Source of the DNA: Membranipora membranacea
Lineage: Eukaryota > Bryozoa > Gymnolaemata > Cheilostomatida > Membraniporidae
Reading direction: 5' to 3'
NCBI GenBank assembly: GCA_914767715.1
Contig: OU612069.1
Location: forward strand, 5,952,001 to 6,016,000
Length of the DNA: 64,000 nucleotides
In this document: positions 6,858-58,722 of the stretch, piece after piece
Layout: the number at the start of each line of letters is the position of its first letter
How positions within the stretch are numbered: position 1 is the stretch's first letter
Notes under the pieces: generated by a model
Databases searched by the model: none
What the model was told of the DNA's origin: nothing
The model's input: the letters and a program-made list of their open reading frames with translations, nothing else
Program-made: the position numbers and the translations under genes

Positions 6858-8890
6858 GCGTCTTTTTTGTTTGAAGTTTGTTTATTGCCTATATTCTAAT
6901 ATCCATCCTGGGATAGGTTGATAGCATCGAATGTACAGCACATACATGGAAAAATAAAAATAAAAGGAGTCTGAGCTGCATTAGTTAAAAAATCGCATGT
7001 AAAATTCAAAAAAGGTATTTTGTCTTTTGGTTGTTCTACACTTGGATGGCCTATATTTATCTATTTTTGCTCTACAAGCAGATGTTCTGTTTGTGTTTAT
7101 TTAAATACGAGAGTTCAAGGGGTGATTATCGTTGTCAGCTATTCTAGTGGAATGTTCACTGCAAGTGGTGTGCAGGAATGTTGTGATGGGTGGCAGTGCT
7201 AAATGGTCCAGCTTCTGCTCGTAGTTGTCAGAGAATGTTAGCACAATCCGAGTAGCAGAGCGCTGGATCCTCTCGAGTCGTGTTTTATCGGTGTCTGATA
7301 GTAGATTATACCATGCAGGGCAGGCGTAGGAGATTATAGACTTAATGTTAGCTATATAGAAGGTTCTGAGGCCATCACTATCCATGCCCATGTGTTTTAG
7401 CAGTCTCATCAAGTATAATCGTTGAGAGCATTTAGATATAATAATATAGTCAACATGATTGCTGAAAGTTAGTGTGTTGTCTATGAATACGCCTAAAAAC
7501 TTGGGATGCTCAGAGGGAGAGATAAAGAGGTTATCATCTCCATAGGATATACCAAGGCGCATAGCAGGTTTGTTTGTAATAGCTACATTCAGTATCACAG
7601 TTTTGCTGGAATTCAAAATCATGTTGTTTTGCTCAGACCAGGTGTTTGCTAACAGTATTGCATCAGATATGTTCTCAGTGGATGGATCAACGATGGGCTT
7701 ATAAAAGGTTGTATCATCAGCGTATTTGATACATTTTGTATCATAATCAAAAGATTTTAAGTCATCAACATAAATTAGCCAAAGGATGGGGCCCAGTTTG
7801 GTTCCGTGAGGGGCACCTACTTGAATGGGTCTGTAGTCAGAAAAATTATCACCGTATTTTACACATTGTTGTCTTGACTCCAAAAGACTTTCTACTAAGG
7901 CAATGACATTATTGTTAAAACCAATATGATTCATTCTATATATCAGTATTGAGTGCTGCATCCTACCGAAGGCTTTGGAAAAATCAAGGCATGCATTTTG
8001 TATTAGTTTCACATTAGTATTTGAGTCCAGAACGGTACTGAGTTTCTGTTGGTAGGCATATTGATTAGCGTTAAGTACTTCTGCTAGGTGAGATTTCATT
8101 TTGTATATAATTACTTCCTCAAGTAGTTTGCCGAGATGGAATAATGAGCTGATAGGCCGGTAATCCTTGTATGTAGATGGTGTTTTGGTTTTAGGGATTG
8201 GTACTACTTGCGCCTTTTTCCAAATATCAGGGAAAGAGTTGGTATCCAGGGCACAGTTAATAATGTTGTGTAGTGGAATGGCCATATCTTCTATGCCGTC
8301 CTTAGATATCCATGTGGGGGAGTCTTCATTTGATGTAGCCTTTGAAATATCCAGTTTTCTCATGAGGAGTTTGACTTCTCATATACTTAGATGGTCTAGC
8401 TTGTTGGTGTTAGTAGTTACATATGCAGAGCTCGAGGTAGCTCGTATTTCCCCGACTTCCACATAGTAAGAATTGAGATTTTTACAGAAAGTGTCATTAG
8501 ATAGTTTGGTGTCGTCGATAATCACATGTGTTGATGATTGTTGTTGTTTAGTTTTGTTTGTCAGTTTTTTTATAGTGTCCCACCAGGCTTTAGTGTTTTG
8601 GTTTTTGTTGATGGTTTCCCGGACAAATTTTCTTTTGTTTTGTCTGAGGAGTCGTTGGCAGATAGTTCTCAGTAGTTTGTGCGATGGGCAGCCTTTACGG
8701 TACGCCTAATTTTTGGCACAGATTACTTTGTGTAATGTGTCGCTCATCCAGGGAGGTTTGTCGACCCGGACTTTGGTGGTTTTTATAGGGCAGTGATTGT
8801 CAAGAATCTTAGATATAGTTTCGTTCATTAAATGAACTTTGCTGTTTATATCCTGGGTATTTAGTACTGAGGACCAAGACTGTTCAGCTA
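6858..8890 (-). mobile_element. 5'-truncated LINE (CR1/Rex1-like) with reverse transcriptase ORF
   Basis: An open frame at 7101-8363 on the minus strand encodes reverse transcriptase. Visible motifs are DYRPISSLF, motif A (LDFSKAFGRM), motif B (GTKLGPILW), motif C (KYADDT) and LGVFID. Upstream, in other frames to about 8885, is the linker between endonuclease and RT (PPWMSDTLHKVI; CQRLLRQNKRKF; AWWDTIKKLTNK), showing stops and frameshifts. The endonuclease itself is missing. The 3' end carries AATAAACAAACTTCAAAC, as in the copy at 25.2-26.0 kb. It sits inside a coding exon of the pseudogene. I could not identify a clear target-site duplication. The clade label is from motif resemblance only. 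Confidence 0.85.
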
Positions 8891-10978
8891 ATCCCAGTGC
8901 CAGAGGCCCCAAAAGCCAGAAAGAGAAAGAAATCAGTACCCAGACAACAAAAGACACCACGCCCAAGGAAGCAAGCTGCTGCTAAAGCTCTGCAAAGAAA
9001 AAGGTAGCAGCGGGGGAAAACTGACACATTCTACTTCGTGTCCCAGGCTGGCTCTTAATGATGGCTTAGAATCATCCAATATGTCACCTTGGTTCACACC
9101 TATTGCTAAAAAGAAGCGCATATCCAACATTCAACAAAAAGGTAAGAAGGTTTCTGAGCACAAGCAAGATCAGAATGAGCCCATACAAACAAGTGAAAAC
9201 ACACAGCAAAGACGCTCATTCAGTCAAGATAATAGTATTGTCCATGGCTCAGTAACTTTACCATGGGAAGGAAGGAAAGTGTTCTCTTGAGTTAACCGCT
9301 CACATAGCTCTCATAACTCGGCTAGATTGGCTACAAAAGAATCAACTGACCATGTTGTGGTTGATGAGGTTGTTCTACCTAGTGTGGAGAGTGAACGAAT
9401 GGAGCCTATGCAGAAGCGTGATGACATTGAAGGGAATTCGCACTCTGGGCCTTCTCTGACCCTCAACTCTGTAATTAGTCCACATCAAGAACCTGAGGCC
9501 ACATCAACAGAAGGCCCAGTGGTTGGGTCTGCTGCACCTGATAACGAATCGATTCTCTGTGAGAATGAAACAAATTTAAGAGTCAAAACCAAACCATTTA
9601 CACCCAAACAGTTTCTGAAAACAGTTGATATCAAGCTGGCTGACAGCCCAACTATAACCCAGGATCAACAGCGATCAGATGAAAATGAAATTAATGTTCA
9701 GGTTAACCCTGAGCCTGATGTTATGGGAAATCCCCTTTTGGAAAACCAAGGCTGCTTGAGCGTAGCAACAAAAGGAACAACATCAAAAATCATGAATTTC
9801 AAGAAGCCTGTTGCTAAGGCCGACAGTCCCCCAGCGGTTTAATTACGAGATAAGATATGTGAAAAGTTTGCTGACGTGAGCTTGTCACAACAGATTAAGA
9901 ATTCCCAAAAAGAACCTGTTGATGAAAGGCCCATCGTGAAAGATAGCATGACAAAGGTGAACAAGAAAATCACTAAAAGTATGCAACTAAATGTCAGTTG
10001 GGCAGTTACTGGTCATTTTAACAATTGCCTCAACACACATCTAAAACAAAGTACATGACGGTGGTGTCACACCTTCTAGTGCACTCTTATCTCATAGAAA
10101 TCCATCAGAGAAGCATTGTGCTGTATCAGATGTTACACAGATAGACAACGATACTGTGCCAGAAACACAGGATGCTCCTCCTGTCGCTACAGGAATGGGC
10201 GATGATGAGAAGTTTGAATCTGTACCTGAAACCCAACAGTCCAGGCTGGAGACTGGCGGAGATGTTGAGGCTGAGGTGTCAAAAACACCATCATAAGTTC
10301 AGTGTGACAGCGATAGTGCAGCAGACAAGGAACATGTAAACGCTCAGCCTATTGAAAAAAATTACTGTCCCATCTCCAATCACAGTGCGGCCTAAGCGAG
10401 GTAGACCTGCTAAGAACACCCGGACAAGAACGCGATCGGAGCCTATCAGAGCCATAACCCAGAGCACCTGCTGATGATGAGGAAATCAAAAGTGTGTAAA
10501 CCAAACCTAGAGTGTCATTCGCTGAAATAGTTAAGTATGCCATGACGCCGCGTACTAGAGGTCAAGCTATAGTGGTTATGTTTGAAACGCCTGAGTTAAG
10601 TGGTGCCATCACACCTATCAAGACTATACTGAAGTCAACTAGATCAACTCCTGGTAAAGAGTTAGTGCAAATAGCTTTGATTGCTACAATGCTGTGGCCG
10701 GAGAGATAACGCCCAAGGCCATGCCTGCCAGTGATGGTTTGGTAGACGAAACTGGAGATGACGTATCGTCCAATTCAGATGACACTACAGTGAAGGCCGA
10801 TAGTATAGCAGCTCGCACTTTATTGAAGGACCATAATTTAGCAGATTACAACACTAAAGGGAAGGCCCATAATATAATGGATGACACTATAGTGAATGTC
10901 TGTAACCCATGTCCGGCTCAACATGAAAACAGCAGCAGCAGCAGCAGTCACTTCATGTTCATCTATCCACCTGTTGAG
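8891..10978 (+). pseudogene. basic and acidic low-complexity coding segment with AT-hook-like motif
   Basis: Resumes the host gene after the LINE. It starts with a Lys/Arg-rich stretch (PKARKRKKSVPRQQKTPR), shifts frame at 9003-9047, then runs open except for stops at 9288 (TGA) and 9840 (TAA) to 10055. Next comes DGGVTPSSALLSHR in a shifted frame, a KRGRPAK AT-hook-like motif near 10394, and KPRVSFAEIVKYAM after a TAA at 10497. The last part (to 10978) includes a run of six Ser from an AGC repeat and ends at a strong donor, GAG|GTGAGT. Because the frame stays alive between lesions, the damage looks recent. Function is inferred only from the motifs. Confidence 0.55.
9004..9046 (+). other. possible 43-nt intron
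   Basis: Sequence begins GTAGCAG and ends GTGTCCCAG. Removing it joins the basic segment (..AAAKALQRK) to LALNDGLESSNMSPW in frame, with AG|G completing an Arg codon. The alternative is a one-base frameshift, because the shifted frame is also open across the interval (GSSGGKLTHSTS). Confidence 0.3.
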
Positions 10979-11403
10979 GTGAGTGATCAGATTGATTTAA
11001 TCGAATTTTGGTTATGAAGGACAATGAATTGAATTTCATATGTTTTATTGAATTCTGTGTCTTGTTGTCATCGGGGTTTAACTATTTCCAAACAGAAATG
11101 ATGATTAATGAGGGACTATCAGAATATGCCCCAATGATTGCTCACAATTACAGATAAAAAGACACATACAACGAATAATTGCGTAAAGTAACAAGGTCTG
11201 TCATCGATATACTGCTACGGTATTTGAGCCCATTTCTTCAAACACTTGGGAGTTGCCCTAACCGTCAGAGCTACACTGCCTTCTGTTCTATTGTGTTGGA
11301 GATACTGTCTTGAAGTCCTTCTGATTTGCAAGCATTCATCTGAAAAATCACGAATTCGACAAACTGACATGAAATCATTTCAAGTTCTTTCTCTTTGCTG
11401 CAG

Positions 11404-12636: not shown

Positions 12637-14049
12637 TGATGATGTCAATCAACAGTGTTTCATGCAGGTGGAGTTATGATATAACAACAATTAGAACATA
12701 TCTTACCTTTCAAGTCCCGTATCCTAAGATAGGCATAGTGACTCCATTACCCAATGTAGCGTCTCCATGCCAAGCTGTCGGATTGCTCGTCGAATCATTA
12801 TTTATTATTGGAGGGATTAATCTAAAGAAAACTTCACCCTGTCTTTCCACAAAATTGAGGGAGGTTGAAAACCCAGGTTAGGCTCAATAGCAGGTTCACC
12901 TCTGCTGGGAGTTTGACAGAGCTTGTTATTACAGTATATATACATCAGTGACTTGTTATTATGGTGACCTGTCATATTAATTTTTAACTAGCCCCTATAT
13001 AAATAAAAAAAAGGTACTCCCAATATACCTGCTGTACTTGAGATCTATCTCTACTCAGCTAACAATAACAAAAGTATCAAATCCCACTGGTTCAAGATTT
13101 AAGAATATTCGTACCATAGCTCTCAGCCTACGATGGTGAACTACTCATGTTACATATAATACCAACAACCTGCATTCTCTGCACAGGCTATTTATATAGT
13201 AATATCACATTGAACATGAATTCTGTTCCAGATAGGTGCAAACATAACACTTAATCAAATACAAAATTATATTAATACAAGAAGTAACAGAAAGCAAGTA
13301 AATTATCACTTGCCTAATTTCTATGCTGGCACAAAGAACAACATATTATCTACATCCAGACAGTATAAATATCTTAGCCTTATCAAGTGGCTAATTTCTT
13401 TGTTTTGGGGAAACAACCAAAAAAAAACTGCCGCGTGACAAGGCTTATCCGAACAGTAAACGATACAAAACTTAGATAATATAAGTACAAGGAGTTATCC
13501 TCTCTCATGCAGAGAGAAGATAAGTGCTATAACAACAGTCACAAAATGACAATTAGAGGGATGAAAAGCGATATAGATTGTGATGATCATTTTTGGTAGT
13601 CTACAGCCATACATTCGTAACATATGTAGGAGACTACCCTACAGGAAAAACATGTTTGGTGTGAATTAAATTTCGCAATTTTGGCGACCTAGAATATCGC
13701 TAATAATTTATTCCACCAAAAAATTGATCCAAAAAGGAAGAAAAAAAAAAAAAATCCGAAAAAAAAGGTATAAGTTATCTTCTCTTTTTAGCGAGTGGAC
13801 AACTTCGCTAAACTTTTATTCCTCTAAATCACACATGAGAGGGCAAGTCGCGAAAGTAAGTTTCACCAAACATTTCTTCCCGTGGGGTAATCCGCCATTG
13901 TTAACTGTGACAGAAGAAAAAAAAGTTTATGCAGTACAAATAACCAATTGATAAGCACAGTCTATAACATGGTGTATCTACTTTCAAGATAACCCGACAC
14001 GCTAATGAATAGTTGAGGTGCTTACTTCTCTTAATAATGTGTGAGACAG
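12637..14049. other. intergenic stretch between convergent genes, no gene recognised
   Basis: AT-rich, with a long A tract near 13739-13768. A TTTATT at about 13816 would read AATAAA on the minus strand and could serve as a distal poly(A) signal for the ROCO-caspase gene, though it lies more than 200 bp past the stop. No coding or RNA feature is evident. Confidence 0.35.
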
Positions 14050-15120
14050 TCAGTGCTTATATTGCCTTTGGGTAGCCAAGCTTTTTAGGAGACTCTCCTT
14101 TGTATGCTTGGATCTTCGTAGAGGACCTGTACTGCTCACTACAGGAGGAAGAACAAGGTTCTTCTGAAGTGTATTCCGCGATTCTGGAGACTGATCATAC
14201 TTGTCTCCTTCATTCTCCTTCATGCCCATGACAGCATTGGTAACCATCTCATTTATGGTTGTCTTCCCATCAGCCTTAGCAAACTGCCTGGCTATGGCTC
14301 CAGTAAGAGCTCCTCTGACAGCCATCTCTCCAACCACTGTTGACATCAGTAGCAGTGTATGAGGCCTCTTTAGTACGACATGGTCAACCTCATTTGATTT
14401 ACCTTCCTTTGCATCAGAATGGCATGTTGAAGGTCCTGCTGCTTGTGTAGGGTTGTAATATTGGCAGGCCTGAACTATGGCAATCTACAATGTGTATTAT
14501 ATTATATCGATTGACTACAAATATTTTGAAAGTATGATTTAGTGTGCAACCGTAGTTACAATTCTATTTTGTTTGATAGTCAACAGATGGTTATTATTCG
14601 AATGAGAAGTTATCACATCATCAGCCCATGCCACATATTGATCCATTTTTTCGATCATCAGCATGTTTGCTGCCGTGGAGTATTGAAGAATGAATACATA
14701 CCATTGGGACTTGCTCAGACAACTTATTATCTAGTATCTGTAGAACATCAGTGATGGGGATATGCGAGCCATTGCAGCCATACAGCATTCCGGCTTTTCC
14801 ATGGGTCATGATGGATATGACAAGAAGGGAGATTCCTTGGGATGGAAGCTCAGCAATTCTGGGACGCAGGTCTAATGCACTTTTCCATTCTATCTTCTGA
14901 GTCTCGCATCCTGCTGCGACTAGGCTGTCAGCCATTTTATTAGCTTCATCTTCAGCATCAGGTCTATTCTCGGTGTTGAACAGCACCAGACCGTACCTCT
15001 TCATATGATCTTGATGATGTGGTATGATGTACTGGTCACTCTGAACAAATAGTCGATTGATGTCGTTAGCGTCTAATGGATGCTTCTCTATGAGCTCCTT
15101 CAGTATCTGTGACTTGTCAC
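14050..15120 (-). CDS. caspase-like (peptidase C14) domain, last two exons of the ROCO-caspase gene
   Basis: Two exons, 15120-14702 and 14484-14050, separated by a phase-0 intron (donor ATG|GTATGT, acceptor ACACATTGTAG). The first encodes a linker ending IIPHHQDHMKR, then the p20-like core: YGLVLFNTENRPDAEDEANK, a beta strand SLLVISIMTHG with the putative catalytic His, and GKAGMLYGCNG. The second opens with IAIVQACQYY, the catalytic-Cys loop (QACQY in place of the usual QACRG). It continues through a Lys/Glu-rich interdomain segment to a p10-like part, PHTLLLMSTVVGEMAVRG and GALTGAIARQF, and ends LATQRQYKH at TGA 14050-14052. Both catalytic residues are present, so protease activity is plausible. 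No CARD or DED precedes it; phases join it to the COR domain upstream. Confidence 0.85.
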
Positions 15121-15641
15121 CTGGTTAAAATTAGAATTCAAGTCCAAGAGATATAGACAACCTGCAGCTTCCATTCTATTGTATATATAGCATTTTACAA
15201 TTGTAGATTTTAATATTTAAATGAGATATATATATGATTGTGACATATAAACTCATATTTAAGACGAGTGGTTGTCATCATTAGTATGCATTGATGTACC
15301 CAACAAATATCTCTGCTAGCTGTGCAACTTGGTGTCACATTACAGTAATGTCAGTTGTAGCACCTTACCACTGACTTCAGATATAATGATAACCATAAAA
15401 CATATATAACTTGAATCAAATTAGCAGACTTTTGTTAGAGAGCCATAGTTGGCTAGATCAAATTTTGTTGATTTGCTTGATTTTCAAGTTTCTCCCATTT
15501 ATGGTCACACTAAGATGATCACACATAATACGTAATATAATGTAATATATAGATGTAATACAACAACTTTTAATGGATAAAAACTGATTAAACATGTACT
15601 AAGTTTTATAAATTTTAATTCAAATTAATTCGGAAACTTAC

Positions 15642-15707
15642 TTGATAAGACAAGCTTTGATATGTAGCCTTGAAGTTCAGTATGACCAGCCTCTGTTATG
15701 CTTGAGC
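15642..15707 (-). CDS. 66-nt linker exon between COR and caspase domains
   Basis: Acceptor ATATTTTAG and donor CAA|GTAAGT on the minus strand. Two leading bases complete the split codon left by the Roc-COR exon. Then SSITEAGHTELQGYISKLVL plus Ser is encoded, and one base (A) is left to join GT of the caspase exon as Ser. This phase agreement on both sides is the main evidence that the caspase domain belongs to the same gene as the Roc-COR exon. Confidence 0.7.
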
Positions 15708-15937
15708 CTAAAATATTCGCAAAGAATCATTGATAATAAAATGAGTTTTCCATGCACACAAAAATCAGTGTCTGGGAGGGCTGCTGAAGAGGGGGTTCAA
15801 GGTAGGTAAGCAGCTGTAGTGGCTGGAGCACAGGGAGATGGTGCTTCAAGTTCATTTTATTAAAGTAATTTGCCTTTTCCATGCCAATAAAGATACTTTA
15901 CACTATGATAATACATATTTTTAGGACTTTTACATAC

Positions 15938-17886
15938 ATGGTTTCATGAGTGGTTGTGGAACAAGTCGGTTCTCTTTGTTCTGCACTTCCTTTCTGCAGA
16001 CAAACTTCTCATATCCGGTAAAGCTGGGAGCTTTTTCTCTAGAACTATCTGGAACATCCTCTTGGTACCAATCAGGATCAACAGCTGTTTGTGGGTCTAG
16101 TTTGATAGTTAGTAGGCAGTGAGAACAGTAGAAGACACTCTCATAACGAACTCCTTTCCAGACAGATTTGAGTTCGGTGGTGAGCTTTCTCAGGGTCGAA
16201 ATCTGCTCTTCTCTCGCTTCACAGAGGCTTTTCTGAGGTGTCAGAGTGATTAGAGTGACACGCTTTTCACCTGCATTGTGAAGGAGGTGTTCGATTATCC
16301 CATTACTCTTGGTCACAGTAGCACCATTCCCACCTGCCTCTGGAAAGTTTGAAGGATTAGAATTCATGTCTAGATAGACGGCAGTGATGAGGGAGAAGAT
16401 GTAGCTGGGTATGGGTAGACCGCGGAGATGAAGATCGACCTTCAACGGCACCAGTTGATCGTACACTTCAGGGGCTGTTATTGTTCGGCTGGCAAAATAC
16501 GGTATAATGTATTTCTGATTGCTTATTGCAGCATTTGAACCGCATTGATGCACAAGATGAAATGTTCTTAGGATTTCGATGGACACATCGGCAGGGAGTT
16601 GGGATTCTTGCCCTAAGAGGTGTAGAAGCAGAGGTGCATCCATCACTCCTGTGTCATTGAATGTGTCTATCATCTCTACATATCTGCTCTTCTCTATGGT
16701 TTTTCCGTCAACAAGAGAAAACGGAGTAAATTTATCTAGCCTTTTGTACCAGGATTCCTCTTTTGTGTGGTTGTATAGTACTTCTATCACACTTGTTATG
16801 ACTTTAGAGCGATGGAATATAAAGTTTGATAGCTTGTTTAGTCTCCTGAACCACATTATTTGACTTATTTCATGAAGATACTCGAGAGTGACATGTCCTT
16901 TATCATCAGGGAATTCTTTCTCTATTTCAGACAGGGTGAGCATGGGCTTGTCAGAGTGTTGGACTAGCTTCTGTAGTATTCGATACCAGCTACCGGGAAT
17001 CTCAGTGATTAATCCTGCGCCAGCTGCTATGATAGCATTTTTCAGCTTGTCGATTTCAGGCTGTCCGGATGTCTTCGAGAAGTGATGGATGTCACAAGGC
17101 CTTATCAGGACTTCTGAGGTGTTGGCGAAGCTGGTCATGGTGAAGATCGGGTTAGAGTCCTTTTTCTGTTCGACATTATTTTCTGCTTGAATTATACGTT
17201 GGCGCAATTTCTCAGTCACTTTGAGCAGTTGATGAGTCGTCTGTTCAACCTTATCAGGTATACTGTCACAGTGAGTGAGGACTACTACAGGTCTTTTCAG
17301 TTGAGGACACGCAATGTAGAGGTGGGATAACCACTCAATACAAAGCTCTTTACAGGCAGATTCCTCACCTTTCTCTGAAACTAATCTTTCAAACTCAGCA
17401 ATGTCTATCACTAGCAGCGGCACACATTTTCTTCTAAAAGTCAGTCTATAGGAAAATTGGTAGATCTTCTGGCCTCCGAAGTCAGTAAAGAGTATTTTTG
17501 ATTTCTCGTCAGCTTTCGCCTCGCTCATTTCAAACACTTTAGTGGCAGCATCCAATTTCCCCTCATCAGAATCGCGTTCCGTCAGCACCCTTTTGTTTGC
17601 TTGCACACTGTTAACAAGGCTTGTTTTACCAGCTCTGCTTTTCCCTATGACAGTGACAGGTATAAGTCTCTGATTACTGGCTTTCTCAATATGGAGGTCA
17701 TGAATGTACTTTCTCACAGCTTCTACACCTTGCTTACAGACACCTAGTGGTGGAGATGTTAGAGAAGCACAGTTATCACACTCTACTTTTTCTAATGTGG
17801 GGATACTGAATAAGCTCTCGGGGATGGTTGTGAGAGATCTGTTATACTTGATATCCAAAGACTTCAGATTAATCAGCTGGCTGATG
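15938..17886 (-). CDS. LRR-Roc-COR (ROCO family GTPase) central exon
   Basis: A 1949-nt exon (acceptor TTCTGTTCTTTTGCAG, donor CAT|GTATGT) with about 649 codons and no interruption. Residues 1-50 are an LRR pair (ISQLINLKSLDIKYNRSLTT..) matching the upstream cassettes. Residues about 75-270 form a Roc GTPase: P-loop GKSRAGKTS (82-90), DFGGQ switch motif (136-140) and THCD (205-208). Residues about 290-640 are a COR domain, from IPGSWYRILQKLV to a Cys-containing end (FYCSHCLLTIK). ROCO proteins use Roc-COR as a nucleotide-dependent dimer switch. There is no kinase or death domain: the frame instead passes through a short linker exon into a caspase domain. Starts in phase 2 with the C of a split Ser codon, exactly what the LRR cassette exons supply. 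Confidence 0.9.
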
Positions 17887-20800
17887 CTGCAAAAGAACAG
17901 AAGATAAAGTGTATTGTGTGAGAAGGTAAAACTGGTCATCTGGTAATCATCTTATTCAGAGGGGAAAATGCTGGGAAGAGAGGGATGTGGCAAAGTATGC
18001 TGAATCGTTGGGCAAGTAGAACCTTCCTACATCTTCTTTATAGAAAATTTTATATACGTGTTTCTGTAATATTCATCAAGACCAGACGATATTAGACTTC
18101 ATTAACTTTAACCTCAAAAACATTTCTGAGATAAACTCATCTAGGCTCAACATTATCTGTAAGTATTTAAAAACTTATAGTGGATGGATTCGAGGAAGAG
18201 ACACAGGGGTCAGTGAATATCAACTTTCTGTACTCCGCTTGAATGCTGCATAGCTACTGATCAGTAACAGCTCATAAAATTGTGACTGGATGACGTTGTG
18301 TCATTTCATCCAAGAAATGAGGCCAAAATGGCTGTTTTTACGAAAGTGGGTGGCTGAGCTGATATGTGATGACGTAATGGAGTCATTTGCCCAATAATCA
18401 ACTTATTTGGCAGATCAAGCAATATTTATCAAGCTGGTCTACATTGCCATACAGAGCAGCACCAACCTTTCTCGCACTATTAACAACAGTCCAAGGCAGT
18501 GAATATCATCAAAAAACTGTATTGATTTGATAACTGCTGGCCTGATTTAACCTGGGGTGTATTGCTATGTAGGCGAATTAAGATTTTCAATCCAAGAATA
18601 TTTCTTGCCAAAGTTATTGTTATTATTATAATTACCAAATTACGTGGCTGTTATTATAGGATATATAGGATTTTCAAGTGGGAGATGTGGAGTGAAAGTC
18701 ATCACAAATATTTTCCTGAATTAATATTAAAAAATTATGGTTGTGATAAAATTATGGTTATTAAAGTATTGTACAACTATCGGTTAGCAACTGTGGCGTT
18801 TGCTTATTTAAGCCTGCACAACAAGAATAAGTACTATTTCTAACAGCATGATAAGAGCGTTTGAATTTGTAAGAACAGAATGCCTAATTTGGCAATACGT
18901 GGGCGTAGACTTGTGATACAGATAGTAGTTTGAACTTGATCTGTGCTATATTTATCTTATTGGATTAATGAGTATTGCCCTTCATGTTAATTGAAGAAGA
19001 CAAGTCAATAGAGCGATCAAGATGTAAGGTCAGTTTACCCTGTATACTCAACAAAGTTTGAAAAGGTTACAGTCCAGTAGATCTAGGATAGGCAAGATGT
19101 ATTCCATCCCATAGAAACCTGGGTAAAGTAGATATTTCATGTCAGCTTGGAAAAGCTCTGTTGGGGTATGTACTGAATGCCGATAAACTGCAAAACCAAC
19201 ATGAGGAGCATAGAGCACCATTGAAAAGTGCTGCTTTGCACCCTCAAGGATTATTACTTTCCCTATATTATTTATAGATCAGTCTTTGAGAATTGGCACC
19301 GGTATTGTAATATTTCAGACAGTTTAAATGACACATAATATTATATCATACCTAATTTAAATTCGGCAAATTGCAATTCAAATCTGTATGCAGCATTAAT
19401 TTGAAGAGTTTTAAGATATAACATCATTTGCTGGTGTCTTGCTGAACATTGTTCCAGTATGTTGTTACACATCTTGCAAAATACTATTTCCAAGATGGTA
19501 TAGAAACATTGCGGCAGCAGAAATCATATCCCGTTACACTCATGCTATTGGTTGAGAGGACAATCCAATGCTCTCATATTATTGGAATGAGAAGTGTCAC
19601 CATTATGATGAGAGAAAGCACTGAACGTTGTGACAGTTTTATGAAAAAACATTACCACAATGCATCTCATTTTGAACATTATCAGTGGCTATGAGGTGGT
19701 TGTCACAGCATTATAAAACAAACTTCATGAGATGATCATAAAATAATGCTGTAGTGATGGAAGAACTGTGATGCTATAACATTGTTAAAATTGAATACTT
19801 TTTGATAGCATGATCATAACATCATGAAAGTGCTAATTATAAGCTGTATTCTCACATTTAGCAGTGATGTATCATCATGTCAAAAATAATTTTTGACTAA
19901 TACTAAGAAGCAAAGATTCTGCTATAACTGAATCTGAACATTGTGATTACCATTCTGTATCCTATTAGACAATAACCCAATCCTATCATTTACACACCAT
20001 GTAATACTTGAAAAATTTGTATGCGATACGATGTTACAATGTTCACCGTTTGCTGGGTTTTTGACCTTCATTTTTTAACAAGAAGTCAAACAGTTTTTAG
20101 GTTATGGAATATAGGGATCACAAAAATTCTCAGGGATCAATATATTATTAGCATTTATAAACTTGGATTGTCAGCATTGTGATAGGTAAACTATAAAAAA
20201 ATCCTTTTCTTTTATATCTACTGGTAGGTACATATAACAATTGCCTTAAACAAACTGCTCACATGGATTTGTAAATAAAAGGCAATATCTCCTTGTCTAG
20301 CATACTCAGCAAGTCATCATGGAAAAGGTAATAAAACTGCCAACACAGGTCTCCAAAATTTAAATTCACACTTCCGCTTTTGAATTTTACTAATCGCAGT
20401 CACGTAGATATGTTGGTGGTTGGTTGTTTGACTGATCTAAATAGAACAGCTTTATTTTCAGTTTTAACGCTTTGTATATTTGGTATTTATTACAAGTCAT
20501 TGCCATCATCTTAAGGGCAAATCCTCCACCTGTACTATTTAAATATTTACAAACATATCCAACTGTCAACAAATAGTCCATTGAAATAATGAAAGTGAAA
20601 GATTTGAAAGAGTTCCAAAAAAGTCGCCACCTCCATAAATGGGGTGCAATCATAGACTTGATTATAAACCTAGACATGACACTATATGGATAGTGAGGCA
20701 CTAAGGGACTTAATTGTGGGCAACAAACGTCATTGGAAGGTGTAGAAGCAATGATGCTATCATTGATTTTCCGTCCACAATGCACGTTTTTTAATCATAA

Positions 20801-22987: not shown

Positions 22988-23128
22988 CTGTCTGGAAGGC
23001 TGGTCAAGCCACAGATCCTCGCATCTATTCTCTTCAATGATGGAATTTCCCCCAATCCTGCAGGTAGTGTCTGTAGACCCTCATTCCAAGGAACCTCTAA
23101 CGACTCCAGTCTTGGCAGTTTGCAGATG
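22988..23128 (-). CDS. LRR cassette exon 1 (141 nt, two LRRs)
   Basis: Minus-strand exon with acceptor TTATTTATCCACCACAG and donor CAG|GTGAGT. It begins with C and ends with AG, phase 2 at both ends, so it splices to itself, to its sister exons or to the Roc-COR exon at 17886 without frame change. It encodes ICKLPRLESLEVPWNE, GLQTLPAGLGEIPSLKR and IDARICGLTSLPD: two leucine-rich repeats of 23-24 residues. It is nearest to the Roc-COR exon. Residues at the variable positions are E11, P13, W14, R33, R37 and I38 (numbered from the Ile). Confidence 0.8.
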
Positions 23129-30957: not shown

Positions 30958-33146
30958 ACCATGTGAACTGCCCAAATATCATCAGCAGATCACCTGTTAC
31001 ACAAAAAAGGAGAATACTCTTGATAAATGTTATGTAAAGCTGAAGAAAAACGCTTATAAAAACTACAAAATAAATAGACTAGGTAGTTCAGATCATAACC
31101 CTATCCTGCTCATTCCTAAATATAAGCCTATTAGTAAACAGATATCTGAGAAAGTCAAGGTGCCAGTCAGAGTATGGAATGAGGAGAACAACGAAAAGCT
31201 GCTTTGTGAAATCGAAACGACTGACTGGAAAGCGTTGACAAGCCAAGTCAGTAATGTGTCTGAACATGCTGAAATTATCACAGACTACCTAGCCTTCTGC
31301 CTAGACGATTGTATACCAACGGTCAACAGGGTCATTTCTAACGACAAATCTTGGGTGAATGGTAAGATCAGGTCGCTCTTCAATGCTCGGTCTGCTGCAC
31401 TCAAAGATCGAGGTTCATACAAACTCCAATCCCTCAAAGCTATGATCCAGAGAGAAATAAGAGCTGCAAAAATATCTCATGCTAAGCACGTAGCCGAAGA
31501 ATTTAAAACTAGCAATACAAGATCATGACAGCAGCTAAATAGCGTCTTAAAATCAATAAACAACCAGCGAAAGAGTGTAACGTTGATCCCAACATTATCA
31601 ATGCTTTTTATCTACGCTTTGAGAATGTACTTCCACCTCCAGTATTACCACCAGCGGAAAGTGACGGGTTTCCTGATATACGCGTAGATCAGGTCATCAA
31701 ATGTCCACGTCAAACAGACCCAAAGAAAAGTCCGGGGCCAGATGGTATTCCTGGCAGGGTGCTGAAGATGGTGGCATATTCTCTGAGTAAACCTCTCTGT
31801 GATCTATTCAACGGCTGCATCAAGCTGGGTAAGTTTCCACTAACATGGAAAACCGCTATAATAAAACCAATTCCTAAATCAATCACTGCCAACGTAGCCA
31901 AAAATTATCGACCAGTGGCCCTATGTCTATCGTGGCTAAAAACATTTGAGAGGGTCACCAAACCTATGATATCTGGCTGCATGACGGACGAGTCCAAGTT
32001 AGCCTACAGAGAGCGCAGGTCTACAGAGGATGCACTAGCGATGTTACTGGATATAGTTACTAACCATCTTGACTCCAACTCCAAAAACTATGTATGCTGC
32101 TTGTTTGTTGATTTTACGAGTGCTTTTAACACCATTAGCCCCCTAAACGGGGAGATCATCAACCTTATATACAACTTCCTGACAGATAGGAGACAAAAAG
32201 TGGAAGTTGAAGGTCAATTCTCTGCTGTCAAAACAACATCCACTGGCAATCGACAGGGGTGCGTCTGGAGCCCACTGCTATTCTCCATATATGTCCAGAA
32301 TATGCCTGTACCACCATATGGTAACTACCACCTGATCAAATATGCAGATGACACTATCCTACTAGAGCTCTGCACACCTAAGACACCATCAACACTGGAC
32401 ACAGCTGCGGAATTCCTCATTGACATGTTTTGTGCCAATGACCTCATACTAAATGTCGCAAAAACAAAGGAAAATATTATTAGTAACAAACGTGATAATC
32501 CAAGCTGTGATAACATCATCATTGAGGGTATTGAGGTTCAACGAGTCGATCAATTTGTATACCTTGGCACTTCTATTGACTCAAAGCTCACTTTTAAAGA
32601 TAATACCCGGTCTGTCGTTAGGAAAGCTAGAAAACGGCTTTATATTATGAAACATCTATCATTCCTCAAAGTGCCTAAACCAATCAGATTGAGATGCTAT
32701 GTCACGTTCATTGAGTACGTTTTTATTTACCATCTGCGCACTGGTTTTGGTCCTATGTCCAATTCATGTGAAAAATCTATTGACAATGTCATCTCCACAC
32801 CAGGTTATCTAGCAGGATGCAGATTCTTCAACATATCTAATATCTATGGACGTTGGTTTCACAATGCAAGTGCATTAGAATGTACGCCACTGAGAATGAC
32901 CCTCTTTTTGAGCTAGATAAGCTATCTTCAGGGCGCTACCATGCCTTGAAGTGTAGAGTTGATATTCGTGGGAACTGTTTTAGAGCACAATGCATAAATT
33001 TTTTAAATAAAACATTTGTCTGAGTATCATTTTATAACGGTACAACACTGCAACATTTTTATATCATACAGTATTATAATATTTATATTATGAGCTCAAC
33101 AGACGCATTTGTTTCGCAACAACTTGGCAGAGACAGAAAAACTTAT
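30958..33146 (+). mobile_element. LINE (Rex1-like) with endonuclease end and reverse transcriptase
   Basis: Begins within the endonuclease C-terminus (LGSSDHNPILLIPKYKP, the SDH motif) and runs open to 31527. After frameshifts it resumes at 31759 in an RT domain with YRPVALCLSW, motif A (FVDFTSAFNTI), motif B (GNRQGCVWSPLLFSIY), motif C (KYADDTILL) and VYLGTSIDSKLTF. The frame shifts near 32880 and ends LSSGRYHALKCRVDIRG..FLNKTFV at about 33021. Host repeat sequence (ATATTGCTAA before, CTAATATTG after) resumes directly, with CTAA on both sides as a probable target duplication. Inactive from frameshifts. Confidence 0.85.
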
Positions 33147-42948: not shown

Positions 42949-43089
42949 CTGTCTGGAAGACCAGTTAATCCACAGAAACTGGCATCTATACTCTTCAATG
43001 ATTGAATTTCCCCCAATCCTGCAGGTAATGTCTGTAGACCCTTATTCCCACTAACATCTAACGACTCCAGTCCTGGCAGTTTGCAGATG
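42949..43089 (-). CDS. LRR cassette exon 2 (141 nt, two LRRs)
   Basis: Same splice sites and phase as its sisters (acceptor ..TCCACCACAG, donor CAG|GTGAGT). Encodes ICKLPGLESLDVSGNK, GLQTLPAGLGEIQSLKS and IDASFCGLTGLPD. Variable positions: D11, S13, G14, K16, S33, S37 and F38. No stop and no splice-site damage, so it is usable. Confidence 0.8.
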
Positions 43090-48236: not shown

Positions 48237-51200
48237 TTCTTTTTTTTCAGTTATCGCTTTTGTTGTGACAGCTCATGCCCGCCCAATTAATTATTGATTG
48301 TTTTATTCGTATGATAATTTTCTAATCAAGTTTTACCTAAAACACGCCTCCAAGACCCAGTGAATTTATAAATTTGTAAGACCCCGTTGGAGGGGAGGGG
48401 GGGGGGGGCTTAAAGCGCCTCTGTAAAACCAAAAAAGCTTTATCTCTTTAACCCAAGAGTTTATTCGGTGTTCCACTGCGCTGCACAGGGTAGTCAATGA
48501 TGACAGGATCACATCTGAAAGCTAAAAATCCTTCTGATTACGAAGCGCTAACCTGAGGAACCCTGATTATCACAATAAACAACATTGACATTGTACTTCT
48601 GAACTTAATATAACTTTATGGTATTGGAAATCACAGATTATCTTAATTTTTACCAGAAAGTGATGACGTAATGGAGTCATTTGCCCATAATCAAGTTATT
48701 GATGTTCCTAAGCTGGTTTGGCAGATCAAGCAATATTTATCAAGCTAGTCTACATTGCCATACAAAGCAGCACCAACCTTTCTTGCACTAATTAACAACA
48801 GTCCTAGGCTGTGAATATCATCCAAAAACTCTTTTGATTTGATGACTGCTTGCCTGATTCATACCTGGGGTGTATTGCTATGTAGGCGAATTGAGATTTT
48901 CAATCCAAGAATATTTCTTGCCAAATTAATTCTTATTATTATAATTACCAAATTACGTGGTTGTTATTATAGGATATATTATAGGATTTTCAGTTGGGAG
49001 ATGTGGAGTGAAAGTCATCACAAATATTTTCCTGAATTAATATTAAAAAAAATATGGTTGTGATAAAATTATGGTTATTAAAATACTGTACAACTATCGG
49101 TTAGCAAATGTGGCGTATGCTTTTTTAATCCTGCACGACAAGAATAAGTACTATTTCTAACAGCATGATAAGAGCGTCTGAATTTGTAAGAACAGAATGC
49201 CTAATTTGGCAATACGTGGGCGTAGACTCGTGATACAGATAGTAGTTTGAACTTGATCTGTGCTGCCCAAAATTACTTATTATTATTATGATATATTATG
49301 ATATTCATTGTTTATTTGAGCCAATTGTTACATATTAAATGAAATTATTTTCAGTTACATAGACTATGAGCCTGCCTGCCAGCGTGTCCGACAATCAACA
49401 AAACTAATCAGGTGGTAACGTCTGTGGCAATAATTAATTTCTCTTTTTGTTGGCGGTATATACTTTTGAGAAATAAACTGCTTTAGTTCATCAAATTAAG
49501 AAAGTATAGCCTCATATCTGACTGTGCATTGATACAAGGTAATTCGTTGACTTTTATTTTTAAACACCCACCAGAGGTGTGTGGCTGATGGGATTCCAAA
49601 TTGTCTACCTGTGTCCATGTGTCCTTTGCCCATCTGTTGGACAAATTTCAAGGAACAACCTGTACTGAAATAGCATAAGCTGATGGAAAATTTAATTTAA
49701 CGGACAGACAATCTATCGCTGGACGGATAGATGAAATTGAATGGCCAATTTTTTTTCAGCTCAATGACCTCCTCCCCCTTGCTCTAAATGCAATTGCATT
49801 GGCGGCAAAGCGTTTTTGGATTGATCAATTTAACAAACCACCTGGGAAAGAGGTATGTGTTAGGTATACCATGAGTTGGCTACATATTTTACAGAAACAG
49901 AGGGGCAACAAAAAATTACATAGTATACCACCTGTATTGTTGAACCTTATCGGAACAGACCTAAATAGACCTAGATGAACATGCATGCAATGGCTGGTTC
50001 ATGCCACAAAGCTAAAATTAAAAATACGCTCAATTCATCCTTATATTAAGTAATATGGCACTTATATGTACTTCTTGTGACTCGCCTATTAAGACAATAA
50101 TAGGAAATGAGTGACAAAACAGCAGACTGATCAGTTTAAACATTCTTCCATCTCTAGCCCACATTTTGTGAAACTCACTTCTTTTTTGCAATCATTGATT
50201 TGAAATTCATATATTGCCAATGCAACATCAATCGAACAAAGTTACAATTTATTCAAGCAGTCTTTAAGAAACCAGTCTTAGATTTGGTCAAACACTTATT
50301 TTCTCTTGACATACTCATTCGAGAACAAAGTACAGCAGCCTGTCTAGCAATCCCGTATAAGGAGAGCAAGTTGTGATTCTGTCGAGATATTTGAATACTA
50401 GATGCATTGTGCGCATAATAAATAATGCTAATATTATTAAATTGTTAATATTGAATCGTAATACAATTGCATATGTATGTGCTTTCATTCTCCTTGCGCC
50501 TAATTAAATCGATGATGCACCAATTATATTATTTGCACCTAAAACCAGAGTTCCCTATTTTAAGTTTTCCTTAAATGAAAGTTAGTGTAATGGGGTCAGT
50601 CGAATGTTGTCTCGACCACTTTTAGCACCACTGTAGGGAAGCGCATCTCGCTTACTCAAAGGTACTACTGTTGCAAGCATCTGACTCACATGTTTGTTTC
50701 AAATATTCAAAGGTATTTCTAGTGATGCAAGTTACGTGATTCAGATGTGAAACTCAACCTATAATTGTTGACTAAAAATATAGACCTAATATGTAAATAT
50801 AAATGCTAAACTAAACTTGTTTTCTCGTGATGCATGTTATGCGATTCAATTTATCAATCCATAGTGACAATTCACTCCATCCTTAAAAAATGTGAATAAT
50901 TCACTAGCCTTAGCTTCTGACTGGTATAATTGTGATGCATTGATACTCGATGCATCGAAGACAGATGTTATAACAGTCTCCTATATTGATGTTGAGTTGA
51001 TTTTTCTCTAACTAATTTTTCAGGGCATGTTGTCCTCAAACATTCTGACAAACTTAAATATTTAGGATTAATTTTTAGAAAAAAATATGAGTTTTAAATC
51101 CCATGTCAATGAGATTAAACAAAACCTAATCCAGTCATAGCAAACTTTAAGAGAAATCACCATACTCAGAGGGAACAAACTAATTCTACAAAAAGTGTGA

Positions 51201-51940
51201 TATACTACTGTTGCAAGCATCTGACTCACCTGTCTGGAAGGCTGGTCAAGCCACAGCTTTTCGCATCTATACGCTTCAATGATGCAATTTCCCCCAATCC
51301 TGCAGGTAATGTTTGTAGGGCTTCATTGTTATAGACTTGTAACGACTCCAGTCCCGGCAGATTGCAGATGCTGTGGTTGATAAATAACAGAATGTTAAAA
51401 TACCATGCAATACTGCTTGTCAGTTGATGGAGCGAACACAATCGAGCAACGCATTCTATTAATAGGAGAAAGTTTCAGATTGATCTGTTACCCGCGTAAG
51501 TTGTAACTTTCAGATACAGATAAATGTATGAATTTTACAGCGCTTCTGCCGAAGCTGAGGTTAATTGATATGACACTGCACTGCAGAGGATAGTCAATGA
51601 TGGCAGGTTCACATTCAAAAGCTTGAAGTCCCCCTGCATAGGGAGGCTTATCTGAGCCTAGGCTTTGTGAAATATTAGTAGAATGAAAACAGAATTAACA
51701 CGGAATCACTGGTTCTTAAGAAATTCACATGTGAAGGTTTTTCATGTGAAAGTTTACAAGATCACTTTGCAGTGAAAGTAAGCCAACGACTAACTGAGTA
51801 CTAAATTGTGAGTTCATTACTTACCAACTGATACCAAGTGCTACTACAGCTGCTATTCTTACAAATTCAATTCAAATTTAACTCCACTTGATTTTTCTAA
51901 GGCATGACCTCATCTTGGCCGACAACTGTAATGTAAGTTT
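48237..51940. repeat. 3.7 kb tandem duplication, copy A
   Basis: From TTTTTTCAGTTATCGCTTTTG to the same phrase about 3.7 kb on. It holds G tract, recurrent segments, leader, LRR exon 3 and downstream flank in order. Nearly identical by eye to copy B over its length, with a few small indels (for example about 300 bp more near 48460-48590 versus 52150-52330). Confidence 0.85.
51230..51370 (-). CDS. LRR cassette exon 3 (141 nt, two LRRs)
   Basis: Acceptor ..TCAACCACAG, donor CAG|GTGAGT, phase 2 at both ends. Encodes ICNLPGLESLQVYNNE, ALQTLPAGLGEIASLKR and IDAKSCGLTSLPD. Variable positions: Q11, Y13, N14, R33, K37 and S38. Only N3 and K37 differ from exon 4. Confidence 0.8.
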
Positions 51941-54936
51941 TTCTTTTTTGTCAGCTATCGCTTTTGTTGTGACAGCTCATGCCCGCCCAAATAATTGTTC
52001 ATTGTTTTATTCGTATGATAATTTTCTAATCAAGTTTTACCTAAAACACGCCTCCAAGACCCAGTGAATTTATAAATTTGTAAGACCCCGTTGGAGGGGA
52101 GGGGGGGGGCTTAAAGCGCCTCTGTAAAACCAAAAAAGCTTTATCTCTTTAACCCAAGAGCTAACCTGAGCAACCCTGATTATCAAAAATAAACAACATT
52201 TTAAATGATTTAGATATGTTTATAATCTTAGCAATCTTAGATGTCGCGCCCATTTCATATTTTTTCATTTCAAGTTTTCATACTTGATAGTAGTCGGCTA
52301 CATTTTTGTAAATGCTACGTGATAATACATCATTGACATTGTACTTCTGAACTTAATATAACTAAATGGTATTGGAAATCTCAGATTATCTTAATCTTTA
52401 CCAGAAAGTGATGACGTAATGGAGTCATTTGCCCATAATCAAGTAATTGATGTTCCTAAACTGGTTTGGCAGATCAAGCAATATTTATCAAGCTGGTCTA
52501 CATTGCCATACAAAGCAGCACCAACCTTTCTTGCACTAATTAACAACAGTCCTAGGCTGTGAATATCATCGAAAAACTCTATTGATTTCATGACTGCTTG
52601 CCTGATTCATACCTGGGGATTTCAATCCAAGAATATTTCTTGCCAAATTAATTCTTATTATTATAATGACCAAATTATGTGGTTGTTATTATAGGATATA
52701 TAGGATTTTCAAGTGGGAGATGTGGAGTGAAAATCATCACAAATATTTTCCTGAATTAATATTAAAAAAAATATGGTTGTGATAAAATTATGGTTATTAA
52801 AGTACTGTACAACTATCGGTTAGCAACTGTGGCGTTTGCTCATTTAAGCCTGGACGACAAGAATAAGTACTATTTCTAACAGCATGATAAGAGCGTTTGA
52901 ATTTGTAAGAACAGAATGCCTAATTTGGCAATACGTGGGCGTAGACTTGTGATACAGATAGTAGTTTGAACTTGATCTGTGCTGCCCAAACTTACTTATT
53001 ATTATTATGATATATTATGATATTCATTGTTTGTTTGAGCCTATTGTTACATATTAAATGAAATCATTTTCAGTTACATAGACTATGACCAGCCTGCCAG
53101 CGTGTCCGACAATCAACAAAACTAATCAGGTGGTAACGACTGTGATAATAATTAATTTCCCTTTTTGTTTGTGGTATATACTTTTGAGAAATAAACTGCT
53201 TTAGTTCATCAAATTAAGAAAGTATAGCCTCATATCTAACTGTGCATTGATACAAGGTAATTCGTTGATTTTTATTTTTAAACACCCACCAGAGGTGTGT
53301 GGCAGGTGGGATTCCAAATTGTCCACCTGTGTCCATGTGTCCTTTGCCCATCTGTTGGACAACTTTCAAGGAACAACCTGTACTGAAATAGCATAAGCAG
53401 ATGGAAAATTTCTTTTAATGGACAGATAGTTTTCGCTGGACGGATAGACGAAATTGAATGGCCAATTTTTTTTCAGCTCAATGACCTCCTCCCCCTTGCT
53501 CTAAATGCAATTGCATTGGCGGCAAAGCGTTTTTGGATTGATCAATTTAACAAACCACCTGGGAAAGAGGTATGTGTTAGGTATACCATGAGTTGGCTAC
53601 ATATTTTACAGAAACAGAGGGGCAACAAAAAATTACATAGTATACCACCTGTATTATTGAACCTTATCGGAACAGACCTAAATAGACCTAGATGCAATGG
53701 CTGGTTCATGCCACAAAGCTAAAATTAAAAATACGCTCAATTCATCCTTATATTAACTAATACGGTACTTAAATGTACGTCTTGTGACACGCCTATTAAG
53801 ACAATAATAGGGAATGAGTGACAAAACAGCAGACTGATCAGTTTAAACATTCTTCCATCTCTAGCCCACATTTTATGAAACTCACTTCTTTTTTGCAATC
53901 ATTGATTTAAAATTCATATATTGCCAATGCAACATCAATCGAACAAAGTTACAATTTATTCAAGCAGTCTTTAAGAAACCAGTCTTAGATTTGGTCAAAC
54001 ACTTATTTTCTCTTGACATACTCATTCGAGAACAAAGTACAGCAGCCTGTCTAGCAATCCTGTATAAGGAGAGCAAGTTGTGATTCTGTCGAGATATTTG
54101 AATATTAGATGCATTGTGTGCATAATAAATATTGCTAATATTATTAAATTGTTAATATTGAATCGTAATACAATTGCATATGTATGTGCTTTCATTTTCC
54201 TTGCACCTAATTAAATCGATGATGCACCATCTAAATTATTTGCACCTAAAACCAGAGTTCCCTATTTTGAGTTTTCCTCAAATGAAAGTTAGTGTAATGG
54301 GGTCAGTCGAATGTTGTCCCGACCTCTTTTAGCACAACTGTAGGGAAGCGCATCTCGCTTACTCAAAGGTACTACTGTTGCAAGCATCTGACTCACATTT
54401 TTGTTTCAAATATTCAAAGGTATTTCTAGTGATGCAAGTTACGTGATTCAGATGTGAAACTCAACCTATAATTGTTGACTAAAAATATAGACCTAATATG
54501 TAAATATAAATGCTAAACTAAACTTGTTTTCTAGTGATGCATGTTATGCGATTCAATTTATCAATCCATAGTGACAATTCACTCCATCCTTAAAAAATGT
54601 GAATAATTCACTAGCCTTAGCTTCTGACTGGTATAATTGTGATGCATTGATACTCGATGCATCGAAGACAGATGTTATAACAGTCTCCTATATTGATGTT
54701 GAGTTGATTTTTCTCTAACTAATTTTTCAGGGCATGTTGTCCTCAAACATTCTGACAAACTTAAATATTTAGGAGTAATTTTTAGAAAAAAATATGAGTT
54801 TTAAATCCCATGTCAATGAGATTAAACAAAACCTAATCCAGTCATAGCAAACTTTAAGAGAAATCACCATACTCAGAGGGAACAAACTAATTCTACAAAA
54901 AGTGTGATATACTACTGTTGCAAGCATCTGACTCAC
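51371..54936. repeat. intron between LRR exons 3 and 4
   Basis: Made of copy A's tail and most of copy B. An open frame at 53516-53722 (AAKRFWIDQFNKPPGKEV..) lies in a recurrent segment; related short frames occur at about 30240, 40890, 49800 and 57240. It may be an old coding relic but has no recognisable domain. LINE RT remnant at about 54735-54850. Confidence 0.6.
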
Positions 54937-55650
54937 CTGTCTGGAAGGCTGGTCAAGCCACAGCTTCTCGCATCTATACGCTTCAATGATGCAATTTCCC
55001 CCAATCCTGCAGGTAATGTTTGAAGGGCTTCATTGTTATAGACTTGTAACGACTCCAGTCCCGGCAGTTTGCAGATGCTGTGGTTGATAAATAACAGAAT
55101 GTTAAAATACCATGCAATACTGCTTGTCAGTTGATGGAGCGAACACAATCGAGCAACGCATTCTATTAATAGGAGAAAGTTTCAGATTGATCTGTTACCC
55201 GCGTAAGTTGTAACTTTCAGATACAGATAAATGTATGAATTTTACAGCGCTTCTGCCGAAGCTGAGGTTAATTGATATGACACTGCGCTGCAGAGGATAG
55301 TCAATGATGGCAGGTTCACATTCAAAAGCTTGAAGTCCCCCTGCTTAGGGAGCCTTATCTGAGCCTAGGCTTTGTGAAATATTAATAGAATGAAAACAGA
55401 ATTAACACGGAATCACTGGTTGCCAAGAAATTCACATGTGAAGGTTTTTCATGCGAAAGTTTACAAGATCACTTTGCAGTGAAAGTAAGCCAACGACTAA
55501 CTGAGTACTAAATTGTGAGTTCATTACTTACCAACTGATACCAAGTGCTACTACAGCTGCTATTCTTACAAATTCAATTCAAATTTAACTCCACTTGATT
55601 TTTCTAGGGCATGACTTCATCTTGGCCGACAACTGTAATGTAAGTTTTTC
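51941..55650. repeat. 3.7 kb tandem duplication, copy B
   Basis: Second copy. LRR exons 3 and 4 start 3707 bp apart, and the G tract, leader and flanks follow the same spacing. A third, more diverged copy follows from about 55651 and carries LRR exon 5, 3645 bp further on. Confidence 0.85.
54937..55077 (-). CDS. LRR cassette exon 4 (141 nt, two LRRs)
   Basis: Acceptor ..TCAACCACAG, donor CAG|GTGAGT, phase 2 at both ends. Encodes ICKLPGLESLQVYNNE, ALQTLPAGLGEIASLKR and IDARSCGLTSLPD. Variable positions: Q11, Y13, N14, R33, R37 and S38. Confidence 0.8.
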
Positions 55651-58581: not shown

Positions 58582-58722
58582 CTGTCTGGAAGGCCAGTTA
58601 ATCCACAGTAACTCGCATCTATACTCTTCAATGATGGAATTTCCCCCAATCCTGCAGGTAATGTCTGTAGGCCTTCATTGCGACCAACATCTAACGACTC
58701 CAGTCCTGGCAGTGTGCAGATG
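58582..58722 (-). CDS. LRR cassette exon 5 (141 nt, two LRRs), most upstream in the window
   Basis: Acceptor ..TCCACCACAG, donor CAG|GTGAGT, phase 2 at both ends. Encodes ICTLPGLESLDVGRNE, GLQTLPAGLGEIPSLKS and IDASYCGLTGLPD. Variable positions: D11, G13, R14, S33, S37 and Y38. Upstream exons, including the start codon, were not found between here and 64000. Confidence 0.8.

Follow-up and report, generated by a model that had tools for sequence, protein, structure and literature searches.

The 64,000-nucleotide window analysed here, taken from the genome of the bryozoan Membranipora membranacea (contig OU612069.1, positions 5,952,001 to 6,016,000), harbours on its minus strand the exons of what we rather favour to be a single gene for an intracellular protein composed of leucine-rich repeats (LRR), a Roc GTPase domain, a COR domain and a caspase, which would unite sensor, switch and protease in one chain and be activated by dimerisation. 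As judged from the sequence, the assignment of the Roc-COR and caspase exons to one gene model is well supported, since they splice in frame, contribute complementary parts of one caspase domain, show a conserved donor after COR and probably recur together on a second contig.

Four minus-strand exons proposed in an earlier note on this DNA were rebuilt from the letters of the window. Their borders (Table 1) and lengths (1949, 66, 419 and 435 nt), the GT..AG ends of all three introns between them and the agreement of the splice phases were confirmed, and the four exons joined encode a conceptual protein of 955 residues which stays open up to its stop codon. The donors of exons 1 to 3 (GTATGT, GTAAGT and GTATGT, respectively) match 7–8 of 9 consensus positions, and the acceptors of exons 1 to 4 read GCAG, TTAG, CCAG and GTAG. 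Position 17886 turned out to be an internal acceptor and not the start of the gene: the first base of this exon finishes a codon opened upstream, the exon is therefore internal, and five LRR exons are located further upstream. The gene seems, from its sequence, to be larger than first described and to continue upstream of 17886.

Pfam analysis of the conceptual protein revealed Roc at residues 77–207 (29.9 bits, cutoff 27, E 7e-7), including the sequences GKSRAGKTS and DFGGQ, which we take to be the P-loop (G1) and a G3-like motif, respectively. COR-A remained below threshold (13.2 bits vs. a cutoff of 35.3). The structure of the Roc-COR exon was predicted with AlphaFold from 18 sequences, one from the window and the others from 17 of the 21 close relatives (mean predicted local distance difference test score, pLDDT, 78.5). 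The model matched the LRR-Roc-COR structure of the Chlorobium Roco protein (6hlu; E 8e-18, 624 columns, TM 0.50 by query length), as well as LRRK1 (E 1e-16), LRRK2 (E 1e-12) and the isolated COR domain 3dpt (E 1.3e-8). Since the predicted fold matches Roco, LRRK1, LRRK2 and isolated COR, a COR domain is predicted directly after Roc, even though the profile fails. A profile built from the 18-sequence alignment also reaches the Chlorobium Roco protein by sequence (E 1.5e-14), mainly in the Roc part. Neither a protein kinase nor a NACHT or NB-ARC domain was detected in the conceptual protein (Pfam, E <= 1) or in any minus-strand frame of positions 19010–64000 (E <= 0.1); the 5' end of the gene may lie beyond the window.

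The caspase part matches Peptidase_C14 at residues 720–921 (50.9 bits, cutoff 21.4, E 2e-13). Its two exons, separated by 217 bases, are complementary: exon A alone covers profile positions 14–108 (21.2 bits, slightly below the cutoff), exon B alone positions 121–232 (25.3 bits, above it), and both joined reach 54.4 bits. As the two exons account, in phase, for adjoining stretches of a single profile, the splice between them is well evidenced. Sequence matches of the caspase part in the PDB at E <= 0.1 were caspases 2 and 8. A structure model of exon A, although of modest quality (mean pLDDT 65.8), yielded 13 fold matches at E <= 0.001, all of them caspase-2 chains, followed by caspases 8, 11, 3 and others (both among the best 50 of 1273 matches). 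For exon B, comparison with solved structures retrieved no caspase, only non-caspase, chance-like matches. A CHAT protease was considered and rejected, since no CHAT match was obtained and Peptidase_C14 was the only family found for the caspase part at E <= 10; by sequence and predicted fold, the caspase looks to be of animal type rather than CHAT. With respect to the order LRR-Roc-COR-linker-caspase proposed earlier, Roc and caspase thus hold by Pfam and COR by fold only, while LRR stayed sub-threshold in the Pfam scan of the conceptual protein and the linker exon is weak.

Activity of this caspase is less clear-cut. The motif past QAC is altered (QACQY), while the caspase consensus is QACRG, and the putative Arg residues of the Asp-binding substrate pocket, in NRPDAEDEAN and AVRGAL, were placed by eye only, on a pattern which we assume for caspases; both points weaken the case for a working protease. 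Together with the failure of exon B alone to match a solved caspase, the deviating residues would suit a pseudoprotease or scaffold which, like c-FLIP, regulates other caspases. We consider this role unlikely, because the catalytic His and Cys are present and align with caspase-2, the His is invariant in five aligned sequences and exon B surpasses the Pfam cutoff on its own. The protein P0028, from an ENA contig of 1008 bases, is 94 % identical to exon A over 61 % of this exon; it is near-identical to the window also in its read-through into the intron, its start diverges abruptly ahead of AEDEAN, and it perhaps stems from a closely related paralogue, from another allele or from an alternative exon.

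Relatives were searched for with the whole conceptual protein, the 7994 candidates sharing most words being scored. In total, 26 proteins were retrieved at E <= 0.001, 21 of which are close (E <= 6.5e-114; 34–67 % identity to the Roc-COR exon) and look like single-exon readings from metagenome contigs. The other five are distant Roc proteins (E 4.5e-9 to 2.9e-4), a single one of which, from Branchiostoma (27 % identity), is named. Taken by themselves, the introns, the animal type of the caspase and the metagenomic origin of the relatives would point, very tentatively, to a marine invertebrate such as a sponge. Judged by eye on protein letters rather than on DNA, 18 of the 21 close relatives share P-L-x-x-P-Cys at the donor position of the window (17 by pattern, plus P0022), while P0017, P0020 and P0021 diverge or stop before it. 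The residue past this Cys, present in 17 of the 18, is E (11), K (4), M (1) or R (1), as expected from T/GT followed by GAG, AAG, ATG or AGG, i.e., from a donor-like ending; because this ending is so widely shared, the Roc-COR exon can be taken to splice onward normally. At the opposite border, again by eye, nine relatives read past the acceptor: eight (P0003, P0006, P0007, P0017, P0018, P0019, P0020 and P0021) carry a Ser which fits AG/C or AG/T, and the ninth, P0022, continues into a further LRR without an intron. Exon A had four matches at E <= 5.9e-20 among 16 candidates. One of these, P0030 (55 % identity to exon A), and the Roc-COR relative P0008 (57 % identity) both originate from JGI contigs of 8216 bases and are probably located on the same contig, so that the fusion would be linked in a relative. 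This probable second contig and the agreeing phases argue against an assembly chimera, and the Pfam matches, relatives and folds argue against chance open reading frames (ORFs). Pattern matches to related DNA were obtained among viral contigs and bacterial and archaeal genomes, none of which was confirmed as a relative.

Several observations weigh against uniting all these exons in one gene. Judged by pyrimidine content, the acceptors of exons 2 to 4 are ordinary to weak. Support for exon 2 is weak as well: 2.6 % of random intron pieces, and 9.8 % of those free of stops, attain its codon score. An AATAAA at 15861, 77 bases into intron 1, could end the transcript after COR, and retention of intron 1 leads to a stop after two further residues, Cys-Met. 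A search with the caspase part for fused proteins of 525–1671 residues retrieved none among 2437 candidates at E <= 1. Among the 16 candidates for exon A, where absence says little, no size-matched caspase-exon contig was found for the other 20 Roc-COR relatives, and no match came from the contigs of 9567, 12576 and 7832 bases. Finally, neither a start codon nor the 5' end was found within the window.

The AATAAA, the early stop on read-through, the indifferent acceptors, the weak exon 2 and the failure to retrieve a fused protein would all be compatible with two adjacent genes on the same strand, namely a ROCO gene ending soon after COR and a caspase gene driven by a separate promoter, with the Met of HMKRYG within exon A as its possible start. 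Such a separation appears improbable in view of the donor-like ending of 18 of the 21 relatives and the pair of 8216-base contigs, which fits linkage in a relative. Moreover, the phases of exon A and the Roc-COR exon agree whether exon 2 is included or skipped, the open frame of exon A starts only at 15124, and the Met in question is absent from P0029–P0031, whereas the residues ahead of it are conserved in P0029 and P0030. Since exon 2 is of phase 1-1, the fusion of Roc-COR and caspase is in frame with or without it. Such an exon invites cassette splicing and, together with the AATAAA in intron 1 and the early stop on read-through, would also agree with alternative 3' ends, yielding a short, effector-less ROCO protein (polyadenylated in intron 1 and acting as brake or decoy) besides the long caspase form; AATAAA is, however, expected occasionally in A+T-rich sequence, and we give this possibility little credence. 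Splicing of the Roc-COR exon to the caspase exons within one gene is retained as the preferred reading.

Upstream of the Roc-COR exon, scanning of both strands for the LRR pattern detected five exon copies on the minus strand, where it also picked up the Roc-COR exon itself, in addition to three plus-strand matches which do not look LRR-like. The five copies can be joined in frame, both among themselves and with the exon that begins at 17886, because their terminal AG forms a Ser codon with the C of the next exon, and the conceptual join retains the LRR register and contains no internal stop. As the Roc-COR exon was detected just once in the window, the repeat looks like growth inside one gene. 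A Pfam scan of the minus-strand frames of 19010–64000 (9 of 9 pieces) returned only one weak LRR match (18.7 bits, cutoff 27); as such scans overlooked most of the known 141-nt LRR exons, other short exons may escape them likewise.

Between the LRR copies, the pooled proportion of nonsynonymous differences (pN, 0.11) is lower than that of synonymous differences (pS, 0.22) across 10 non-independent pairs, indicating constraint. Variation affects 6 of 10 strand positions which we take to be exposed, going by the LRR motif, and which were chosen after the alignment had been seen, compared with 6 of 36 other positions (p 0.012). In a MAFFT alignment including the near flanks, 33 of 141 exon positions are variable vs. 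54 of 341 gap-free flank columns (p 0.052), and the exon is more divergent than the downstream flank in all 10 pairs and than the upstream flank in 9 of them. Diversification of the LRR exon is suggested; it is not secure, because a cruder comparison with 300-nt flanks would reverse the excess in some pairs, where the upstream flank diverges by up to 74 of 288 positions (26 %) and hence more than the exon, perhaps due to misaligned indels. It is somewhat unlikely that the copies represent debris of duplication or exons of a different gene, considering that all five are open, lie on the minus strand with phase and both splice sites preserved and carry on the LRR register of the Roc-COR exon, that pN is below pS and that no other Roc-COR exon was detected in the window. 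Such an origin would nevertheless agree with their position in repeats of about 3.7 kb, which are similar over long non-coding stretches and have a reverse-transcriptase ORF among them, with the 5.1 kb between the nearest copy and the Roc-COR exon, and with a 5' end that is not seen.

The repeated segments of about 3.7 kb occur several times in 18400–64000, mostly at 85–95 % identity (e.g., 48575–53631 vs. 52322–57366); the LRR copies lie within them, and some repeat copies are devoid of an LRR exon. Two plus-strand ORFs of about 100 residues (49679–49975 and 53387–53719) are located inside repeat units and consist mostly of common sequence. Reverse-transcriptase ORFs (Pfam RVT_1) were identified at 7104–8378 (-) and 31543–32913 (+), the latter between LRR copies 4 and 5. 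Downstream of the caspase stop codon, the plus-strand ORFs 8892–9839 and 10658–11014 encode polar, low-complexity-looking products without a Pfam match at E <= 0.01.

Table 1. Positions of exons, motifs and signals within the window
Feature	Position	Strand	Basis
LRR exon copy 1 (141 nt, phase 2-2, two LRRs)	58582..58722	-	AG..GTGAGT, open frame, 87% identical to 23128 copy
LRR exon copy 2	54937..55077	-	Borders and phase as copy 1; 85% identical to 23128 copy
LRR exon copy 3	51230..51370	-	Borders and phase as copy 1; 84% identical to 23128 copy
LRR exon copy 4	42949..43089	-	Borders and phase as copy 1; 88% identical to 23128 copy
LRR exon copy 5, closest to Roc-COR exon	22988..23128	-	Borders and phase as copy 1; can splice in frame to 17886, LRR register kept
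Roc-COR exon with last two LRRs (exon 1)	15938..17886	-	Begins and ends inside codons; Pfam Roc, fold, 21 close relatives
Putative P-loop GKSRAGKTS	17619..17645	-	I80, G81 and A85-S89 invariant in 18 aligned sequences
DFGGQ motif	17469..17483	-	D135 and G138 invariant in 18 aligned sequences
Linker exon (exon 2; 66 nt, phase 1-1, cassette-like), weakest part	15642..15707	-	Splice sites, phase
Caspase exon A (exon 3), large-subunit part and catalytic His	14702..15120	-	Pfam profile, 4 relatives, caspase fold matches
Catalytic His codon (MTHG, residue 778)	14801..14803	-	Aligned with caspase-2 SHG; invariant in 5 aligned sequences
Caspase exon B (exon 4), catalytic Cys, small-subunit part and stop	14050..14484	-	Pfam profile
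Catalytic Cys codon (QACQ, residue 818)	14464..14466	-	Aligned with caspase-2 QAC
Possible poly(A) signal AATAAA past stop	13815..13820	-	Consensus only; another AATAAA starts at 13712

In the one-gene reading, the LRRs would sense a ligand or a damage signal and thereby alter the nucleotide state of Roc, upon which dimerisation of Roc-COR would bring two C-terminal caspase domains together or free them. The caspase would then be activated by proximity in the manner of initiator caspases and cut itself as well as downstream substrates, resulting in cell death or an immune response; it might also be set free through cuts at Asp residues of the linkers. Copying of the phase-2 LRR exon would allow the recognition part to grow and vary with the frame undisturbed. 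As receptor, switch and protease would share one chain, no CARD, DED or Death adaptor would be needed. In known Roco proteins, Roc-COR constitutes a nucleotide-dependent dimerisation device, and initiator caspases are activated by proximity. Activation by dimerisation is transferred here by analogy from these other Roco proteins and caspases, which tempers the proposal, and the combination of LRR sensor, Roc switch, COR dimerisation and caspase activation in the new gene is likewise a proposal of ours. The idea of a GTPase directly controlling a caspase without an adaptor, put forward in the earlier note, is accordingly backed as far as the one-chain gene model is concerned, whereas direct control and dispensability of an adaptor go beyond the evidence.

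The Roc-COR core is shared with LRRK1, LRRK2, MFHAS1 and DAPK1, of which the LRRK proteins and MFHAS1 also possess LRRs and LRRK1 and LRRK2 were matched by fold. LRRK proteins end in kinase-WD40, MFHAS1 carries nothing further and DAPK1 ends in a Death domain, and none of them is known to have a caspase. Caspase-8 and caspase-9, acting with apoptosome or inflammasome, resemble the predicted protein as initiator-like caspases activated by an upstream sensor assembly; they are, however, recruited via CARD or DED, while the caspase in the present case would be covalently attached.

Prokaryotic AP-GTPase (Roc)-COR proteins combine fast-evolving LRRs with at least 24 C-terminal effectors including caspase (Kaur et al. 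2021, PMC8195603). They agree with the predicted protein in having LRRs first, Roc-COR in the middle and the caspase last, and a role against invaders has been proposed for them; they differ in being prokaryotic (PMC8195603), as opposed to the predicted gene, which is spliced and combines a caspase of animal type with an array of LRR exons. AP-GTPase-COR proteins of bacterial conflict systems are also mentioned in PMC7159879, and the partial text of PMC8242945 contains no mention of ROC or COR. Brown-algal ROCO genes possess 72-bp phase-2 LRR exons subject to alternative splicing, with positive selection on the concave face (PMC11378527). The likeness lies in fixed-length phase-2 LRR exons in tandem before Roc-COR, represented in the window by five 141-nt exons which can be joined in frame, and probably in concave-face variation; the brown-algal exons, however, encode one LRR each in proteins of LRR-ROC-COR only (PMC11378527), while those of the window encode two and precede a caspase. 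The same study counts up to forty domain combinations for animals, and its text nowhere uses the word caspase (PMC11378527). Animal Roc-COR has been found fused to immune or death modules in Trichoplax (ROCO proteins with CARD, Death and TIR; PMC4104024, which also describes LRR exons of Ectocarpus), in the sea-anemone proteins NG1/NG3 (TIR; PMC5094078) and in Aplysia genes (TIR; PMC9334734). These fusions involve adaptor, TIR or kinase domains, in contrast to the protease itself in the present case.

No animal Roc-COR-caspase protein was found in the literature among the matches listed, which cover few subscription papers. In this respect, the impression that the architecture was not familiar from animals holds, although the LRR-Roc-COR-caspase type as such has already been described from bacteria (PMC8195603). 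The LRR-Roc-COR-effector kind is hence known, and the novelty probably consists in a spliced animal version with LRR exon array and caspase.

A wider proposal, to which we attach somewhat less than even confidence, is that of an animal family of one-chain death receptors with amplified, diversifying LRR exons that can be included in variable number by splicing, a Roc-COR switch and a functional caspase. In animals, access to caspases normally runs via adaptor domains. If true, the protein would represent a self-contained inflammasome or apoptosome which is built on a GTPase rather than an AAA-type ATPase and dispenses with an adaptor, and its recognition repertoire would be enlarged by exon duplication, as is thought for the brown-algal ROCO genes. 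The finding would connect the ROCO proteins of animals with the LRR-Roc-COR-effector conflict systems of bacteria and add, besides brown algae, a second lineage in which the LRR part of ROCO proteins apparently grows by exon duplication. A Roc-COR protein with its own caspase would, moreover, provide a direct link, testable in one polypeptide, between a Parkinson-type GTPase (LRRK2 type) and cell death.

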